The notes below the pieces were generated by a model. That model saw nothing but the letters and a program-made list of their open reading frames with translations, was not told the origin of the DNA and did no database searches. Position numbers and translations under genes: made by a program. Positions 1 to 21,628 of a stretch of 64,000 nucleotides of DNA are shown one piece after another; within the stretch, counting starts at the first letter, position 1, and each line of letters opens with the position of its first letter. This DNA is from Aphelidium insulamus. Lineage: Eukaryota; Aphelidiomycota; Aphelidea; Aphelidiaceae. Location: assembly GCA_036784855.1 (NCBI GenBank), contig JAZDSV010000027.1, positions 17,501-81,500 of the forward strand, written 5' to 3'.

Positions 1-1834
1 CATGTGAGGAACTACAAACTCCATTTGTTGCCGTTCAGACTATCCCTGCCACTGTCTCTGTTCTTGACCAATAATTTCGTGCGAATCTTGCGGCTCCACC
101 GAGAAGATCGAATCTATTTCCAGTGCGCCGAATGGGCGGCTATCACTCATGAGAAGCAACTTGAATTTATTGACCGAGATACTCTATTAAGCATGTGTGC
201 AGCAAATGGGATACTCGCCGATAGCGACGGGTTCCAGGACGATTTTGAATATGAGGATGATGGCGTCTCCTTATTCAGCCCTGCAGTGCTGCAAGCACTG
301 CACATGATTAAAAATGCGGGAAAGTATTGCATGGTCTGTCACAAACGGCTGGAACATCCTGGCGCCGTACCCACGTTCTGTGATCAATCATTCAATAATG
401 GACGCTGTGCCTTTACGGCCGTCACGGGAGGAATTACCGGTCTCAAAAGGGCTATCGTCGAGCAGCCGGCTGTGGTTGACCTCTTGCTGACATTAGTGTA
501 CGCTGCTGCGAAGCAAGATATAAAAAAGGGGATTACCGATATCGACGAAGTTAAACTCCGAGCTGTCCGCGAACAACCGCCCCATATATCTTGCGACGAG
601 TGGGAAGTTGTCAAGTTTTCGTTTGGTGATAGGGTAATTAAGGAAGTGCTGGTGCGACAGGTAATTGATGGCCTTGCGACGGTCGAAGCTCCAGAATCAC
701 AAATGAAGTTGAATGATGTGTTGGTCATTTCGGAATGGGACAGGCGACAGGTTATTAACATCGAAACTTTGGATGGTATTACTCTACTTGGTCTGGTCGG
801 CGTCAATAGTGAAGATATTTACGGTAAGTGCAAGTTCCCTTTTATGGCGATTCATCATGCCAGATCCTACAATCGCCCACGTGGAAAGATCGAATAAGAT
901 TAGCCTCACAATGACCGTACCGAGGGAAGACAAGAGTAAAATCGAAATGCTCGATTTGGCCCTCTTTGTAAAAGTTATGGATACCAAGATGCCATCCGTG
1001 GATGAGATGCGAGAGTGGCTAAATGTCCATGAACAGAAAGCTCTTGAAAATGGCGAAAAGTCCCCATTCCGCAGTTGGCTCAACGCTCATACATGCCTTG
1101 CATACCCGATACTAACTTGGGTGTACTTTAGCAATCGTGCGCATATTGTCCAGCTCACAAATCCCGCCGATATGCTAGCTGGTTACGGCACTGATGTCAT
1201 CCAGTTCAAGGTGGCCCACGCCTCACCAGAGCAAGAACACAAATTTGCTGCATCGAAAGCTGCATTGGCGGCCAGAGGAGGACCTGCCAACAGCATATAC
1301 GCGCACCACGGATCACCGCTTTATAATTGGCACAGAATAGTGCGTGAAAACTTTCACGCTGGCGGCACGGAGCTTGTAGACAAGGCCAATGGGGCTCAGT
1401 ACGGCCGTGGAGTATACATGTCTACTCAAGAAGCATTCTCTGCGGCTTACACCAAGGAAAAAGGCAAAATTCAAGTGTGGAAGCAGTCACGGTTCCAGAG
1501 ACTAGAATCATGTATGACACTGAACGAGGTGCTCAACACACCGTCCAAGTACACCATCGTCGAAGATGGAAAAATTATCGTGGTCAACACGGCCAACAGC
1601 ATCATTCCGCGCTATCTGCTGTTGAGAGTACCCGGTGCATACCAGCCAGACGTTCAACGCAACAAAAACAACGAGAGTCGATACCAAGTACTGAACAAGT
1701 ACTTGCGTCCAATATCCAAGGACAACATCGAGATCTCTGTGCCTAAAGATCAGCCGTATCTGGCTCCTGCGTCAATTGGAACATATCGCGCGCCAAAACC
1801 GCTAATTAACGCCGGCGATGCCATTGAGAGATAA
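1..1834 (+). CDS. PARP6/8-like ADP-ribosyltransferase, copy 1 (5' partial)
   Basis: Exons 1-823 and 864-1834; the reading frame is open at the window edge, so the start is missing. The 40-bp intron (GTAAGT...CAG) keeps phase. About 597 residues are visible. In order: a Cys knuckle (YCMVCHKRL ... C ... C, near residues 109-136 of the visible part), the helical block PAVVDLLLTLVYAAA seen in the PARP6/PARP8/fungal UBC-PARP family, then the catalytic fold with YAHHGSPLYNWH (NAD-binding His), YGRGVYMST (second-motif Tyr) and IIPRYLLLRV at the third position, where poly-ADP-ribosylating enzymes carry Glu. Missing Glu suggests mono-ADP-ribosylation (family knowledge). The C-terminal UBC domain of fungal relatives is not seen. 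Copy 2 follows 34 bp later with the same intron position and long identical stretches around the active site. A signal peptide like that of copy 2 would lie outside the window. Confidence 0.85.
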
Positions 1835-1854: not shown

Positions 1855-1860
1855 AATAAA
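1855..1860 (+). terminator. AATAAA polyadenylation signal of copy 1
   Basis: AATAAA lies 21 bp after the stop codon of the first ADP-ribosyltransferase gene and only 8 bp before the ATG of the second. The spacing between the two genes (1835-1868) leaves no room for an ordinary promoter, so the second gene must be driven from inside the first or share its transcript. Confidence 0.5.
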
Positions 1861-1868
1861 CGCGTCAC

Positions 1869-4825
1869 ATGAAGTATATTGACGCGCTCTTTGTGGTGGC
1901 CACAGGCTCCGTGTTGATAGCGTGAGTTTGCCTACTTTGGCTGCATATAGCGCTTTCGAGTTGATGTTATTTTAGAAGTGCCGCACCATTCAGTGCCGAT
2001 GTAATGGCCGACGTGAAGAATATCAGGGCCGCTTTGGGCGCGTCCGCTGCTGCACAACTGAAAGGTATCCCAGCGATATTTTGATTTCTATCATAGCACA
2101 TCATCACTTGGCACATCTATTAGAGGCAACGATGGCACGAGGCACGCAGACTGTCAACATCGTTTGGGGCGATGATGATGTCGGTGCTAGCATTTCATTC
2201 CCATCTCTTTACCCAGCGCCCGATATCAACTGCGTGGTGACTAAATCGGATGATATTGTGGATCTGAGCAGCTTTTCACACTGGTTTACCACTCATTCGC
2301 CTAAATTTGAAGTGCCGATACGCGTGCACACTGTGCTGAAGGCTTTGATGGATTACGTGCAAAGCGATGAGTGTTGGAGTAGTAGCGATGCTGGCGACTC
2401 TGAAGGCGAAGCCTGCAAAGCAATGCCAGAGATATCTGGGAGGAAGAAACGGGCTCGCTCCGAATCTCCCGTACTATATCAAGCTGCAACCAGCGACTTG
2501 GAATATCAATGGATATCAAAGTAAGAGGCTTGTGTACCATGTTTATTGATAACGCTGTGCAGCGACTTAAATAATCTGCACGCAGTGAATTTTCAATCGG
2601 GAGCCAAATTGCAAGTGTTTAACGGAGTCTCAGAGTGGCTATACTGGACGGCTGTCCGCGTGCACCAGCTTGGTCTCACTGAATTGAGATGCGAAACCTT
2701 GCACCTGGATTGCAGTGCACAGATCTTAATAATAATGGTGCTGCCAAAAACCTCTCACGGCACTTCCAAATGGACCCATCCACGTATGGATTCCATTAAA
2801 CCGTCATTCGCGGTGCTGGAATACAGCGGCGATGATGCCTCACATGTCGTGGAGGAAGTTCGGTTCCAGTACGGTAATACGCTCCTTAAACCGCAGCCCG
2901 TACCGTATTATGGTTCCAGTCGGCAATATGGAGTGCAACAGTTCAAACTATCATATTCCATTTCGTCATTTTTGGCCAAGCATTTCGTGCGTATTCTCCA
3001 CTTGCATCGCACACTCGAAATCAACTACGGATGCGCAGAGTGGGCAGTGGTCAATCTGGGGCAGAGGCTGGATTCCATGACGTCGGACCAGCTGTTGACC
3101 GAGTGCGCAAACAATGAAGTTCACGGTAATGATGTTGCGAATGCCGCTGTGGAATACAGTGATGATGGGGTGTCGCTGTTCAGCCCTGCAGTGTTTCACG
3201 CTCTGCATATGGTCCAAAACCCTGGCAAGTATTGCACGATATGCCACCGACGACTGAAAAGTCCCGGTGCCGTGCCCACCTACTGCGACCAGAGTGCCAA
3301 TAACGGTTTCTGCGCCTACATGGCCGTCACTGCCGGCACCATGGGTCTGGAGGAGGCGATTGTCGATCAGCCAGCCGTGGTTGATTTGCTGTTGACTTTT
3401 GCGTACGCTGCGGCACGCCATGATTTTGTCACTGATCCCGGCAACCTTCTGCCCATCAATGATCGGGCGATCCGCGAACAACCACCTCCAGTATCGTGCA
3501 TCGAGTGGGATGTGGTGGAGTTTAATGCGCAAAATGTTACAAGAACTGAGCTGACAATCATTTCGGTGCTGGCAGCAAAGGCTACAGTCGATGTCCCAGT
3601 TGCTCAGCTGCAGGTGAATGATCTGTTGATCATCTCTGACCGAGACAGGCGACGCATTGTTGAAATAGTTTCTGGCGAGTCCGAATATATTATTTTGGCA
3701 CCAAGCACCAATGGCCTCATTCTCGGTAAGTTTATGGTGTTGATGTAGATTTCCCAATTATAATCTGCAGAACCAACCACCAACGTGCAAGTAAAAAGAC
3801 CCAGGCATATCAAGCTCACGCAACCCACCACTCGGCGGGCGGATGGCAGCATAATTGAGACGCTGGATTCTGCAATCATGGTGGAAGTGATGGACGAAAG
3901 ATTTCCGTCCGTGGACGAGATGAGGAACTGGCTAATGGAACATCACAAGCAACAATCAACACCTTCGACTTCAGCGTTTGTACTGGGCAAGGACAAGTCT
4001 CCATTCCGCAGCTGGCTCAACACACACACATGCCTTGCGTACCCGATATTAACCTGGGTGTACTTTAGCAATCGAGCGCATATTGTCCAGCTCACTGATC
4101 CCGCCGAGATGCTTGCTGGCTACGGCCCCGATGTCATCCAGTTCAAGGTGGCCCACGCCTCACCAGAGCAAGAACACAAATTTGCCGCATCGAAAGCTGC
4201 ATTGGCGGCCAGAGGAGGACCTCCTAACAGCATATACGCACACCACGGCTCGCCCATAAACAACTGGCACAGAATAGTTCGCGAAAACCTGCAAGCTGGC
4301 GGCACCGAGCTGGTCCGAGTGGCCAACGGTGCTTATTACGGACCAGGTGTCTATATGTCGACTCAAGAAGCGGTTTCTGCCAGCTACTGCGGAAATCTCA
4401 ACATTGTCCAGCCGTGGAAACGGTCACGATTTCAGGGGCTGGTATCCTGCATGACACTGAACGAGGTGCTCAACACCCCAGCTGACTACAGGATATTCGG
4501 AGACGGGCAGGTAATAGTGGTAAACGCTGCCAACAGTATCATCCCGCGCTACCTGCTGCTCAAGGTCCCCGGCGCCAACCAGCCCGTGGTCAGGGCGGAT
4601 GGCCGGACTAATAATCATGAACTGTATCAGCCGCTGAGCGCTTATCTGCAGCCATGCTCGGCGGACAATACCAGGATATCCGTGCCGCACGATCGCTCGT
4701 ATACCGCTTCATCATCATCGTCATCATCAGTGGGCGGCTACAAGGCACCTCCACCGCGGATATGCGCCATTTTAGTCAATAATAATGACAGCGGCAATGT
4801 GCGCAAAAGGACACGGCGAGACTGA
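1869..4825 (+). CDS. Secreted PARP6/8-like ADP-ribosyltransferase, copy 2
   Basis: Five exons: 1869-1921, 1976-2064, 2097-2520, 2563-3725, 3771-4825 (927 aa; introns 54, 32, 42 and 45 bp; every junction is GT-AG and phase-consistent). The first exon encodes MKYIDALFVVATGSVLIA and joins to SAAPFSA, a classical signal peptide with probable cleavage after ASA. Then follow an acidic N-terminal region typical of PARP6/8 and fungal UBC-PARPs, a basic KKRAR patch, the block YCTICHRRLKSPG with four Cys, PAVVDLLLTFAYAAA, and the catalytic motifs YAHHGSPINNWH, YGPGVYMST and IIPRYLLLKV (H-Y-nonGlu, so probably mono-ADP-ribosylation). The tail is Ser-rich. Relatives are cytosolic or nuclear, so the signal peptide is unexpected and suggests export. 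Family assignment is firm; secretion rests on the exon model. The acceptor of intron 1 is a NAG-NAG pair (AG at 1975 or 1978), both in frame. Confidence 0.82.
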
Positions 4826-4886
4826 TTATAGACATCATCATCATTCATATCATAAAAGCCCCCGACAACTAATTTACAAAAGTACA

Positions 4887-4912
4887 CGGAAAAAAAGTAC
4901 ACTTTTTTTCCG
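4887..4912. repeat. Perfect 12-bp inverted repeat (hairpin)
   Basis: CGGAAAAAAAGT and its exact reverse complement ACTTTTTTTCCG are separated by two bases. It lies 61 bp after the stop of ADP-ribosyltransferase copy 2 and 77 bp before the Crypton start. It could be the 5' edge of the mobile element or a 3'-end signal of the upstream gene; the sequence alone does not decide. Confidence 0.6.
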
Positions 4913-4988
4913 CATGTTACAGAAATTTGTTACGTAATTTGTGAGCACTACATACTTCCGCACAGCGCTACGGCACCACGCAGCACTC

Positions 4989-6939
4989 ATGGACCCATCC
5001 TCATCACCAGACCGTGATCATGCAGCTGCTGCAGCACCACCACGTGACAATGACGTGAATGACATGAATCTTGGCATCATTGGTGCTCCAAATGCTGATG
5101 CAGGCAAGCAGTATCATGCATGTACATGTTATATCTCACCAACACACAGGCGTTCTGTTTGATATGGATGCAACACTCAATGCTGCCAATGCAATAGCAG
5201 CAAATCGGCTCAATGCAGCAACACGTGCAAACTATCAGCGTGCAGCTCAGAAATATGTTGCTTGGTGCAACAGTAATGACTTGGATGCCGGCATACACAT
5301 TGACACGCCACGAAACATCATATTGTACCTGCAGCAAGAGTATATGATGAAAGATATGGCACTTACTACTATCCAAGGACAATTTGCAGCAATCAAGTAC
5401 TACTACCATGATGTCCAAAACACCCGTGGGGACTGGGCAATTCTAAATGACCAGATTGTGGGCAATCCGTGCAACTCGGAAGAGCTAAAGTTGTACTCTG
5501 CTGGTTTAGCACGTTCACTAAATCGCAGCCAAGTACAGAAGTCAAGTCTACCTCTACACTACCGGCATATGGCAAAGATTGCTGTTTGGCTTCGTGCTCA
5601 GCGTGAAATGAATCAAGATGATGAGAATCGGAAGCTTAGTCATTTGGAGGTGGTGACAGTTTGGGCTGTTTTTACACTTGCTTGGGTTTGCTGGCTTCGC
5701 ATTGATGAAGTATCGGAACTCAAGATGAGCGACATAAAGTTGAATCAGTCAACACCATTACGGAACCTACCGTACCATGAACTCCAAATTGTATTCCGCA
5801 AGACCAACCAGGCGGATCGAAACAGGGTATTCAAGTATCAAATCCACGCTGTCCCTGGCAAAGAGGATGCTGATGCATTTGCAGCACTTACAGATTATTT
5901 TCAATACTGTGAGCTGAATCCAACTGCAACCCCAGATGAACCGCTTTTTCGGAAAGTGACAGGAAGTACTGGGACTTCTGTTGGTGGGAACATTGATGCA
6001 AAATGGATTGCATCAATGCTAGACCTCATAACTGGAGAGTTGCAGCTTCTAGACAACCCAGATGTTGGACGGTTTACAACACACTGCTTCAGGCGTGGTG
6101 GTGCCCAGCATCGGTTTATGTATGCTAGGGAGAAGTGGAGTCTGACAGCTATTGCAAAATGGGGTGGCTGGAGCAAGAGTGAACACCATCGTACAATTAT
6201 TCGATACTTGATGGATGAGTACAGTGTCATGGAGAATGATTTCTCTGACATGCTTTCACCAGATCGAGCAGATAGAAGCCTAGCATTACGATACATTGAT
6301 GAGCAGAATGTTCAAGAAAACGAGAGGACCATGGCAGCAGTTGTGATTCAACATCTTCAACAACTTGAACAGCGCCTTCTCCAACATATAATGATGAACC
6401 AAATGCAGCAGCCACGGCTTCAGCAGCAAGATCTAGAGAATAATGGCCAAGAGAATGCAGAAGATGGTAATGAGAACAACCAAGCTGTTCAAGAACGTGT
6501 GGCTGTACAAGGACCAGTACGACGCCGAAGAGGCCGACCTCAACGTGTGTTTAATGAGAGGGCAAGAATGGTAGCCATACCTGAAGCACCAACATGGAGA
6601 ATTGCAGTACGGCAGTGGACACATGGTGATGAGGACCATGGACTTACTGCATTGAACACCTGGACAAAAGATATGATCAATACAAATGGAGATGGTAGCA
6701 GAAGAATGACGTACTCACGTAGAAAGGTCATTGGCAAAGAATATGAAAAATTAGGTGAAGCAAGATTTATTGCAAAACATGATCCAGACCAACTGTCACT
6801 GACAGCTTTGCTTAACAAGATCAAAAGACAACCAGCAAATGTGGAGCAAGGCAATGAAGCTCAAGCCAATGTAGAGCAAGGGAATGAAGCAGCAGTACCA
6901 GAAGTTCAACAGCTACGCAGATCTGGTAGGCTTCAGTAG
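4989..6939 (+). CDS. Crypton tyrosine recombinase
   Basis: Model: exons 4989-5121 and 5150-6939 (640 aa) with a 28-bp intron; without it the protein starts at ATG 5164. An N-terminal SAM-like core-binding domain (TRANYQRAAQKYVAWC) precedes the catalytic domain: first Arg in CWLRIDEVSELK, H-x-x-R in THCFRRGGAQH, a later His in SEHHRTIIRY, and the probable nucleophile Tyr in IIRYLM. A Gln-rich linker, a basic patch (RRRRGRPQR) and a C-terminal GCR1_C-like DNA-binding domain (around TWRIAVRQW) complete the CryptonF-type layout. The frame is intact, so the element may be recently active. It sits alone between the ADP-ribosyltransferase pair and Crinkler debris. The motifs make the recombinase call strong; the 5' intron is inference. 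Confidence 0.85.
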
Positions 6940-13122: not shown

Positions 13123-15748
13123 CTACTCCCAGGTTTGTCCTTCCGTGAAACAGGTTCCTTTGAGGCGATCCAAAAAGTCGAGATGACATTGGCCAAATAG
13201 TTCCACGGCATTATTTGTGTCAAAAACCTTCAGCATACGCTTATCGTCATGATTTCGAATATTCAATCCTTTGCAACTGTGTGGGTACAAAACAAGAAGC
13301 CCAATGTAGCCGTCCTGGCACATCGATGAGATTTTCCTCTTCTTGTCTTCAAATCCGCTCGCCGTTTTGCCGTTCTTGTCGACATACAAAAATTGCTCAT
13401 CAATCGTTCTCAGCGCGGCTGCGACGCTCCCCACAGATTTTTTCAGCTTAAGTTGCGCAAAGCAGGGGTAAAGCTTGGTTTCGCCGCTGGGATATTTCAC
13501 ACAAACACGGCATACGACGTCGGGTCCAGCGAGCTCGTCAGACAACATGAATTCCGCGTTTTGCGTATGTAGAAATTCACAAAGTCCATACTCGGCGGTT
13601 GATCTTGTGCATAAAATGTTGGGCTGAAACGAGGCGTCGGAGTGGATCGAAAATTCGCAGTCGTCAGGAAATCCCTCAAATGTTTTCAGGCCGGCGAAAT
13701 ACTTTTTCAGTTCACGTGGAAAATACTCTTCCCATACTTTCCCTAAACTTCCAGGATCGCGCAACGCTTGCTCCATCCTACTTATTACGTTGTTGTCGAA
13801 ACTGTCGCGAAAAAATTCACAGCCAGCCAGTACTGCCAGCGGTTCATCGATAACAACGCCAAGCTTATTTGCCGTATAGGTAAGCCGAGCGAAGCCGTGC
13901 TCGAATATGGAAATGTCATTCTCATCGTGGACGACGATTGGAAGTCCGGTACTAAGATAATGCTGAAGCATATTCCTTGCCCTTTCCAGGATTTTGTCGG
14001 CATGATTGTCATTTTCTGTGCGCATTCGAACTGATGCATATGTCATGTATAAGCCTCCATTATTGTTGCGGGAGCACATCGAAGCCTTGTACAAGTCGAA
14101 AACTGCTGCCACATCCGTTCCACAATCATACGCACGCAAGTAGTTCTCAATAAACAAGAACAGTAATCGCGGCCGCCCAACCAACCACTTGCTGATATGA
14201 TTTCGTGTAATATCAACGTCGCCAAAATACTTTGAAAAGTGCTGCTCAACCATAATTTTGTCCAGGTAGTTTTCAATCGTCACAATAGCTAGCGAATCGT
14301 CAAATTTTGCCACCGCGTAGGAGACACGCTCCAGCGCCAATTTCATACGAAGACCAGTGCCACAAACCATCAGCCTTAGTGGCTTCCACTTACGAAAGCT
14401 TTTGACAACAGCCGAAAATAGAGGTCGATCGCTTTTTCCTTCTGCACTATCAAAATAGATGTCGAACATAGTCAGCAGCGACTGAGCTTCATCCAAAAAA
14501 ACTGGAATCTTTCTTTCGATGCAAAGTGTCTGTCGGACCATTGCTATGCTGCGTGTAAGATAGGTTTCCAAGTAAAATTCCGACCCTTTGCGGAAAATTT
14601 GCGTCAACTGTAGAAACCAATCGTTATCCTGCAAATCCAGCTGCAAAATCAACCAACGCTTTGGTGTCATCTGTTCCATGTCCATGACCATTTGCATGAT
14701 ATACATGCGAGCGGCAAGAATAGACATCATATGCCGTGCGACAAATGTCTGATTATCACGGCCACGGCCCAGGCACAGCTTATTAGTCCCGCTTAACCTA
14801 TCTATCAGCATGGAAAGGTCACTTGAGCCGTAATTTCCCACGCGTGATAGATCAGCGACGAAGTACAGGCCATAGTTTTGGCACAGAAATTCGAACACGG
14901 TGCGCGTCTTGCCAGATCCAGATACCCCCATGATCAGCACAGTTTCTTCATTGTTTATCTGATTCAATTTAGCCTGGGGCACGTAACCTTGCTGCCCCAT
15001 TTCCGGCAATTGGTGCAGCAGGAGTGAACAACGGTTATTGCAGAAAGTAACGCCATTCTTTTCGTCAAACACAAAGTTGGCCGCAGCCAAAATGGCATTG
15101 CGGTAGTGATCGGAGAATTCGTCAAGGGAGTTTGCCAAGTCACGCGAAGTGAAGTCTTCAATACTCCAGAGCTTCTCCAAGGCACCTAACAATCAGACAA
15201 ATTAATATGTATGTTAGAACTTACTCGGTTTCCGGGAAGGAGTATCGACTTCCATAGGATCTGCACAGACATTATTTTAAAATCGCGCCGTGATATTTAA
15301 GTAAACACTTACCGCCAGCTCTGTTCGATGCTGTGGTCCTATTATTGGAGCCCGTCGCCTTCCGGACCCCACCGGCCGCAGCGTCAAGACCACCTACATA
15401 GTTAGTCGTTGTCATCACACGGTGTTATCTCTGATGCTTACCTTGGTTGGGATACATTGGCGGGTGGGCGACATTAGTCAAATCTACGCAGTTAATCGTT
15501 ATAATCAGGGAATCACGGTGCTTACCCGGGCTTGGATGGAGTGCGTTGTAAATGTCTGCGCCGTCATTACGAGGCTCATTCTTGCACTCATTCTTCCAGT
15601 CCTCCTCAGTGCGGCGCAAGCATGTCGTAGTCTTTCGGTGAATGGAATCAGGATCCGTTGCTATCGTCAATTCGTTGATCAGGTCGACTGGAGGTGGGTC
15701 AATAGTGTTTAGCGCGGCGATAATTCCAGCCTTCTTGTCGGTCGCCAT
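13123..15748 (-). CDS. Crinkler-type protein with P-loop NTPase and nuclease-like C-terminus
   Basis: Minus strand, five exons: 15748-15526, 15483-15442, 15393-15313, 15260-15225, 15185-13123 (814 aa; introns 42, 48, 52 and 39 bp). All four introns are phase 1, and the three middle exons (42, 81, 36 bp) are multiples of three. The N-terminal 130 residues (MATDKKAGIIAALN...) are low-complexity and shared with decayed copies at 7.7-10.4 kb. The body has Walker A GVSGSGKT, Walker B VFLDEAQSLL and a following VCGTGLRM, typical of the Crinkler NTPase, then near the C-terminus GPDVVC ... FAQLKLKK, a PD-(D/E)xK pattern in its QxK form as in NTPase-nuclease Crinklers. Crinklers are host-targeted or conflict proteins in oomycetes, chytrids and other eukaryotes (family knowledge). 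No signal peptide or typical LxLFLAK header is seen. Function is inferred. Confidence 0.75.
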
Positions 15749-19855: not shown

Positions 19856-21601
19856 TTAACCATCATCAGCATGCTCTTCACCACTGCGACACTTGTACGT
19901 GACTATTGGCCGCAGTCGGGCCACCACATGCACTAGGCCAAACTCGACCAGATCCTGCACCACACCGTCAATCTCCTTGTACGCCGCCTGATGCTCCTCA
20001 AACAGCAGCTCGACATCGTCACACACAATGGCACTGCCAAATGGTGTCTCCTGCAGCGCCTGGTGCAGCGGTGCGGCCGCCATACTGCTCAATTTGGCCT
20101 GGAACTTTGACTTGAGTTTGCGTTTGGCCACGCCGCGTGCCAGTGCTCGACCGGCCCCGTGCGCCAGACTCCACCCGTTCTCAAAGTGGGTTGTGGGATC
20201 TGTGGGCGCCACCACGTACGAGTACGAGCCGCGCGACCCCGGAATCACCACCAGCGGGCACTCGTCGGACGGCGCGGCGCCCTTTCTGTGGATCCACACG
20301 TGATCACTAGTGGTATCTTGACGGGAGTCATCTGCTGCGTGCCAAGAATCGCCGTCGCCACGGTGCACTAGTTTTGGCGAGACGCGGTTGTGCCAAATGT
20401 CCAGCACGGGCAGACACTCGTCCGGCTGCACGTCCAGACAGGCCATTATGCGCCTGGCAATGCATTGTCGATTCAGCCGGGCCCACTCGCACGCATAGTC
20501 ATGTGCCGCCAAGTAGGCGCGTCCGGCCTCCGAGTCGACACACAGCGCCGCATCTGTGCTGTTCGGTTTGTCTGTGTTTGAGTCAGCTGCCATGTAAACA
20601 CCATCATTAACTTTTGAAAGTATTTTCTGTCCGAGTGAGCGCGAGCCACTGTGCACCAGTAGGAAGAGGCGGCTGGGATCGAAACCAACGGGCAGCAAGT
20701 CGGCGCGCACAACCTCATCCACCGCCATCAGCTCGGCAAAATGATTACCGCCGCCGATTGTTCCGAGCTGTCGGTGCACGTCATCACTAGGAGGAGTGGC
20801 AGAAGATGTTGGCGGCGGTAGTGAATTCAGTGTCAGCATTGGCGGAAGTGTCTCTGCTAATTTAGCTTCACTCAGCGCCCGGCGCCACTCGTGCTCGTCA
20901 CTCTGGCGCTCCAGTCCATACAAGCGGCGTTTGAGACGCTCTGGCTGCACGCCGGCCGCGGCAAACGGCGTCAACTGCGTCAGAGCCATACCGCAGCCGA
21001 TATCACTGCCAACCAGCGCCGGGTAGATGTGACCGCGGTGCGAGAGGAACGCCACGCCCACGGGGAACCTGCCGCCACCCGGGTGCAGGTCGGGCATGCC
21101 GCTGGCGGAGAAAAAATTGCCGCCCATCGAGCGCACAGTGTCGTGCACCTGTCGACGCGCCGCCTCATCCACCGCCGCGTGCCGGTCAATGAAGAAGACC
21201 CGAGGTGGTCCAGACGGTGCGGCGGTGTCATCCATAGCATCAACCGCCTCTGCACCGCCACCACCGCCACCACTATTGATCATCACCGTGCCCACAAAGT
21301 CCTCCCCGGCCGATACATAGACGGTCACCTCGCCCGCGGTGCCGGCCGCGCGAACAAGTTGCTCCTCGGCATTATCGGCATCACCGCCATCCAGGAGTTC
21401 CACCACGCCACCACCCGCACTGTGCGCCACAAAGAAGCGACGCGGCGAGCGAATGCGCAGTTTGTTGCGTGCAGCTGCACAGAGGCTGTCACGCAGCACA
21501 GCGCCATCAGCACCGCCAGCACCAGCACCACCGCACTCAATAAGCACAATGCAGCGCCGCGTGTGCTTGGCATTGGCCACCAGGCAGACGCGCAATTTCA
21601 T
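19856..21601 (-). CDS. RtcB-family RNA ligase, release-factor-H-coupled type
   Basis: Single exon, about 581 aa from the Met at 21601 (an upstream in-frame Met at 21619 also exists). RtcB ligases join RNA 3'-phosphate or 2',3'-cyclic phosphate to 5'-OH with GTP and Mn. Metal and guanylate motifs are present: VGSDIGCGM (Asp and Cys ligands), GTIGGGNHFAE, VHSGSRSLG, IPGSRGSYSYVV and SLAHGAGR with the guanylated His. IPGSRGxxSY and the C-terminal VVARLRPIVTYK resemble the bacterial RtcB2/PrfH-coupled branch rather than the canonical eukaryotic tRNA ligase HSPC117. A beta-rich N-terminal extension of about 110 residues (LRIRSPRRFFVA ... VTVYVSAGEDF) looks like a ubiquitin/KHA-like fold. An acidic insertion-rich linker breaks the core. 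No PrfH gene is in the window. It likely repairs damaged tRNA or rRNA (inference). Confidence 0.85.
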   Translation of the reverse strand: MKLRVCLVANAKHTRRCIVLIECGGAGAGGADGAVLRDSLCAAARNKLRIRSPRRFFVAHSAGGGVVELLDGGDADNAEEQLVRAAGTAGEVTVYVSAGEDFVGTVMINSGGGGGGAEAVDAMDDTAAPSGPPRVFFIDRHAAVDEAARRQVHDTVRSMGGNFFSASGMPDLHPGGGRFPVGVAFLSHRGHIYPALVGSDIGCGMALTQLTPFAAAGVQPERLKRRLYGLERQSDEHEWRRALSEAKLAETLPPMLTLNSLPPPTSSATPPSDDVHRQLGTIGGGNHFAELMAVDEVVRADLLPVGFDPSRLFLLVHSGSRSLGQKILSKVNDGVYMAADSNTDKPNSTDAALCVDSEAGRAYLAAHDYACEWARLNRQCIARRIMACLDVQPDECLPVLDIWHNRVSPKLVHRGDGDSWHAADDSRQDTTSDHVWIHRKGAAPSDECPLVVIPGSRGSYSYVVAPTDPTTHFENGWSLAHGAGRALARGVAKRKLKSKFQAKLSSMAAAPLHQALQETPFGSAIVCDDVELLFEEHQAAYKEIDGVVQDLVEFGLVHVVARLRPIVTYKCRSGEEHADDG

Positions 21602-21628
21602 TCTTATCAGGTGATTCAAGTATCAACA

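Follow-up and report, generated by a model that had tools for sequence, protein, structure and literature searches.

Fungi carry a branch of the PARP family, Clade 6A, whose members combine an FPE region, a PARP catalytic domain and a ubiquitin-conjugating (UBCc) domain, in that order; the cited passages of Citarelli et al. (PMC2964712) give this arrangement for fungi only. The same passages state that the final glutamate is absent from every Clade 6 protein those authors found. A cysteine-rich motif of PARP6/8 is given as CX2CX9-19CX4C (Perina et al., PMC4245714, in the part cited). Secreted ADP-ribosyltransferases (ARTs) are described, in the cited part of PMC12099005, from the fungus Beauveria bassiana, where 17 secreted ART-fold proteins stand in one cluster and two are diphtheria-toxin-like. 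Here we analyse a tandem pair of PARP6/8-type genes in a 64,000-nucleotide stretch of the Aphelidium insulamus genome (the window; C94:17501-81500 of a 17.95-Mb genome in 169 contigs). The original prediction was that the second gene, copy 2, begins with a signal-peptide exon and that the organism exports the enzyme. On sequence comparison, the family to which the two copies are assigned is clear. Where translation begins is harder to say; probably, though by no means surely, copy 2 is an intracellular mono-ADP-ribosyltransferase that starts at ATG 2004 or ATG 2132.

Two places in the genome match the last exon of copy 2, namely copies 1 and 2 themselves, which are 70% identical in the catalytic part; the tandem arrangement is real. 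As predicted, in-frame joining of a 53-bp exon to a full PARP6/8-like protein is possible: scripted splicing gives a product of 918 residues, with no stop up to 4825. The features of the locus are listed below. Splice donors were scored as matches to a simple consensus at four positions.

1..1834, + strand: copy 1 (PARP6/8-type), which begins outside the window; an exon ending at 823, an intron at 824-863 (placed by frame, 4/4 donor) and an exon at 864-1834 that closes with TAA at 1832-1834
328..408, + strand: cysteine-rich region of copy 1, CX2CX13CX8C
1855..1860, + strand: AATAAA that may serve copy 1 as poly(A) signal; it precedes ATG 1869 by 9 bp
1869..1921, + strand: candidate signal-peptide exon 1 of copy 2, 53 bp, encoding MKYIDALFVVATGSVLIA; donor GTGAGT, 4/4
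1922-1975, + strand: proposed intron 1
1976..2064, + strand: candidate exon 2, containing the competing start ATG 2004
2065..2123, + strand: proposed intron 2, weak donor GTATCC, 1/4
2124..2520, + strand: exon 3, containing the competing start ATG 2132 and GRKKRAR at 2438-2458
2521-2562, + strand: intron 3
2563..3725, + strand: exon 4, FPE-like region and cysteine-rich region
3233..3313, + strand: cysteine-rich region of copy 2, CX2CX13CX8C
3726-3770, + strand: intron 4
3771..4825, + strand: exon 5, PARP catalytic domain (PF00644; Foldseek and VIA-align matches) and C-terminal tail, no UBCc

Left of the window the genomic stretch is N, and the start of copy 1 is thus unreadable. The claim of at least two copies stands for the PARP, for which the search for paralogues returned the second copy in tandem. 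It does not stand for the signal, since a signal exon of copy 1 would lie in the unreadable 5' end.

What kind of PARP is this? The catalytic-domain family PF00644 matches copy 2 with E 1.3e-8 and copy 1 with E 3.8e-9, over the cut-off in both; no other Pfam family reaches E <= 0.1 within 3785-4822. Structure prediction of the catalytic domain, which had been proposed as a check, gives a PARP fold that matches PARP16 and PARP14 in Foldseek and VIA-align, PARP16 being the best Foldseek match; the model has a predicted local distance difference test (pLDDT) score of 69 when copy 1 and 34 of 121 relatives are used, and of 35 from the single sequence. When the spliced product was used as a protein query, 7988 candidates were scored and two of them proved to be relatives at E <= 1e-3. 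One, from Sphaerosporella brunnea, has both PARP and UBC domains (E 5e-17; identity 25%, covering 54% of the query); the other is PARP6 of the glass sponge Oopsacas minuta (E 3e-12; identity 34%, covering 19% of the query). Searching with the S. brunnea protein gave 1226 relatives, and the organisms named among the best 120 are fungi.

From 120 of the 121 relatives, the sponge protein being left out, we built a family profile of length 1189. Copy 2 matches its positions 141-895 with E about 2e-47; taken by part, the catalytic region scores 116 bits and the cysteine-rich region 29 bits. The region before the cysteine-rich part scores 6-10 bits against profile positions 141-246, and shuffling its shorter piece 500 times gives at most 1.8 bits. 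Judged by this profile, we call the region FPE-like. No UBCc was found: the profile match stops at position 895 of 1189, no UBC family reaches E <= 0.1 in 3785-4822, and further downstream 4826-6927, read in its three forward frames, holds no match to the family profile. Because the domain order fits Clade 6A and the profile match ends before UBCc, copy 2 is, judged by sequence, a Clade 6A-like (PARP6/8-type) fungal PARP without UBCc. The predicted PARP6/8 type is thereby supported and made narrower. The last spacer of the cysteine-rich motif is X4 in all 121 relatives and X8 in both copies here.

Histidine and tyrosine are kept in both copies and neither has glutamate at the third position, just as had been predicted. 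The missing glutamate is normal for Clade 6 (PMC2964712, cited passages). Which residue takes its place depends on the alignment: copy 2 has V or Q there, copy 1 I or K. Of the 121 relatives, 8 have no score, and 107 of the other 113 have H. Are the copies enzymes at all? They might be catalytically dead PARP-fold pseudoenzymes kept as binding proteins, which would be compatible with any choice of start codon. The absence of glutamate and a third-position residue unlike that of the relatives would fit this idea, and inactive PARPs exist, RCD1 for example (PMC2964712, cited passages). Yet histidine and tyrosine persist in both copies, and human PARP6, PARP8 and PARP16, which lack the glutamate, are predicted from structural models in the same source to carry out mono-ADP-ribosylation. 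We consider dead enzymes improbable.

In the reading that we prefer, the tandem pair would be fungal Clade 6A-like ADP-ribosyltransferases that bind NAD+ and move single ADP-ribose units onto proteins, as family knowledge suggests, the FPE-like and cysteine-rich parts probably serving in recognition of substrates or partners. The third-position residue, neither glutamate nor the histidine usual in relatives, weighs against this predicted activity. The protein would work inside the cell, with ATG 2004 or ATG 2132 as its start. The signal-like exon at 1869 would then be an upstream exon that is minor or goes unused, or else a part of the 3' region of copy 1. ATG 1869 lies 34 bp past the copy 1 stop and 9 bp past an AATAAA; among 18 gene ends examined, 7, copy 1 included, have AATAAA or ATTAAA 21-55 nt past the stop. 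Both ATG 2004 and ATG 2132 have better start contexts than ATG 1869, the latter of the two with A at -3 and G at +4.

A tentative alternative, which we regard as possible but unlikely, makes exon 1 the true start and the PARP an exported or endoplasmic reticulum-lumenal protein, acting as an extracellular or host-directed mono-ADP-ribosyltransferase; the host as its target is a guess. Several observations speak for this or weigh against an intracellular enzyme. Exon 1 joins the PARP frame without a stop, and its 4/4 donor follows directly after the hydrophobic stretch. That stretch is signal-like, with cleavage-type residues, and the model with MKYIDALFVVATGSVLIA has a signal score of 2.19. 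The coding composition of exon 1 is 0.44 bits per codon; of 1021 control segments, each led by an ATG, free of stops and taken from outside the training genes, 4.1% reach this value. For exon 2 the value is 0.20, which 60% of 218 coding segments and 6.7% of 433 wrong-frame ones attain. Models that equal this composition and also have a signal score of 1.8 or more occur in 0 of 3000 shuffles and at 8 of 825 real ATGs, these being a 1-in-3 sample with true genes included. A start at ATG 2132 leaves 12 residues before GDDD, fewer than in the relatives, where the F-to-G distance alone is at least 21 in the 86 scored. Finally, export of other ARTs seems to occur in this organism: four further ART-like frames in the genome have signal-like starts.

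How much of this survives closer inspection? With synonymous choice alone, the composition of exon 1 falls to 0.10 (reached by 19% of controls) and that of exon 2 to -0.03; the opening nine codons of exon 2 give 0.03. The composition signal in both exons is thus mostly amino-acid make-up. Composition is also a weak instrument, for the accepted exon 3 (2132-2518) itself has 0.10, and 0.04 over its first 29 codons. Hydrophobicity by itself is not rare, an equally hydrophobic signal-bearing extension arising in 152-183 of 1000 dinucleotide shuffles. The score of 2.19 lies inside the range of 2.09-2.56 that 6 of the 121 relatives also attain, four of which start MPR, as does most of the family, and it is lower than the scores of the small ARTs described below. 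When introns of 25-200 bp are allowed across the spacer, 105 stop-free models reach ATG 2132; in the shuffle test, a donor filter of 2/4 positions removes the model originally predicted, in which the GTATCC donor of intron 2 matches at 1/4. The narrow gap to the copy 1 stop and the AATAAA just before the ATG count against export as well, and so do four K[KR]x[KR] motifs in the copy 2 protein, one of them within GRKKRAR.

The weak donor of intron 2 raises one more explanation, which we think very improbable: exons 1 and 2 may be a separate gene for a small secreted peptide of 53 residues, with the PARP starting at 2132. If intron 2 is not removed, the reading frame meets TGA 2082-2084 after six more codons, and the composition of 2066-2131 is not coding-like (-0.05). 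Against a separate gene, a genome search matched these exons only to themselves, with no other copy, and the spacer leaves very little room for a complete gene between its two neighbours.

Homology did not fix the start codon: seven gene models are near-equal, with 156.0-156.4 bits over the full length and 4.1-5.3 bits at the N-terminus. An N-terminal motif profile (MPRxxFxADL) has its best match in the spacer at 2099, with 3.72 bits, as high as in 12 of 90348 windows. This match lies within proposed intron 2, near the family spacing to GDDD, and so counts against that intron. We place little weight on it, because the N-terminal profile gave no backing and the stretch is not coding-like.

A genome search with PF00644 first located two small ARTs, on C53 and C2; two more came from a search of the genome with these as queries.

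C53:90228-91178 (L009): small ART, 317 residues, single open frame
C2:317722-318801 (L010): small ART, 360 residues, single open frame
C86:553 kb (L017): small ART, 337 residues, found by own-genome search
C2:10 kb (L019): second small ART on C2, 243 residues, without the C-terminal part of the others, found by own-genome search

The signal-like starts of these four score 2.80-3.19. As a baseline, the window has 52 ATG open reading frames of at least 150 residues, of which 7 score at least 2.0 and 5 at least 2.5. The matches of the four small ARTs to PF00644 are weak (E 6.4e-6 to 0.062): none exceeds the cut-off in one scan, and C53 is just over it in another. C53 also resembles the catalytic domain of exotoxin A (Pfam E 0.041; PDB E 0.018). 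Among 7997 candidates scored, no relative of the four was found at E <= 1e-3, by a method that needs shared 5-residue words, and uniqueness is not implied. Weaker matches at C86:552 kb (L020) and C111:93 kb (L024) contain stops or short frames and may be broken or spliced genes. Adjoining the longer C2 gene is an open reading frame of 173 residues with a signal-like start (L010:372-893, - strand) and a weak DUF3586 match (E 0.02).

As a sign of ART export, the small ARTs appear more secure than the window PARP. The claim that the organism exports ADP-ribosyltransferases gains support from C53, C2 (twice) and C86, a different and smaller ART family; for the PARP itself export is a hypothesis. 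The suggestion of a new effector class lacks support as worded, secreted ART-fold proteins being already described in B. bassiana (PMC12099005, cited part).

Elsewhere in the genome, a PARP1-like gene lies at C86:767446-768328 (L004, L005 and L008; three matched stretches, best PF00644 E 1.1e-25), and macro-domain matches occur on C99. Chitin synthase (PF03142) has 20 matches, the best with 782 bits over positions 2-527, and also matches 4 of 14 control genomes. IFT57 matches with 96 bits, over its cut-off, and 3 control genomes match it below the cut-off. Together, chitin synthase and IFT57 suggest a fungus, or a near relative, that bears a flagellum; Hsp70 matches in the PDB gave no placement. 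Within the window, directly 3' of copy 2, a tyrosine-recombinase-like open reading frame at 5071-6939 has weak Phage_integrase and SAM-like matches below the cut-offs; we take it to be Crypton-like. A large frame at 13123-15192 (- strand) combines a P-loop-like stretch with a weak AAA_14 match (E 0.07), and presumably resembles the Crinkler-type NTPases. The frame at 19856-21619 (- strand) encodes an RtcB-type RNA ligase (E 2.1e-61), an enzyme unusual among well-studied fungi.

The question of the start codon matters because use of the signal exon would mean that a eukaryotic PARP branch, otherwise intracellular, had become an exported enzyme, which is undescribed for Clade 6 in the cited passages of PMC2964712 and PMC4245714. 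Among the open-licence PMC papers listed in our searches, none dealt with secreted Clade 6 PARPs. A broader scenario is that the Clade 6A-like PARPs, the only ones found in the genome, were re-routed to secretion by gaining a signal exon and shedding UBCc, alongside a lineage-specific family of small exported ARTs; two ART-fold branches would then be exported from one 18-Mb genome of a flagellated fungal lineage. We find this rather doubtful. Even if the signal exon is unused, the genome has a Clade 6A-like pair without UBCc and signal-bearing small ARTs, and the exported ART repertoire of an apparent early fungal lineage is open to direct testing.

Among known systems, the Clade 6A fungal PARPs, such as that of S. 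brunnea, share with the window copies the order of FPE-like, cysteine-rich and PARP parts and the histidine and tyrosine without glutamate. The window copies differ from them in that no UBCc was found, in a last cysteine spacer of 8 rather than 4, in their tandem arrangement and in a possible signal exon. The catalytic fold and cysteine-rich region are also common to PARP6, PARP8 and PARP16 (Clades 6C and 6D), although the sponge PARP6 resembles copy 2 over so limited a part of the query. Secreted fungal ARTs as such are already on record in the cited part of PMC12099005. The B. bassiana proteins, compared by description only, are like those considered here in being secreted fungal ARTs, and on the same descriptive basis they are nearer in kind to the small ARTs of C53, C2 and C86 than to the window PARPs.
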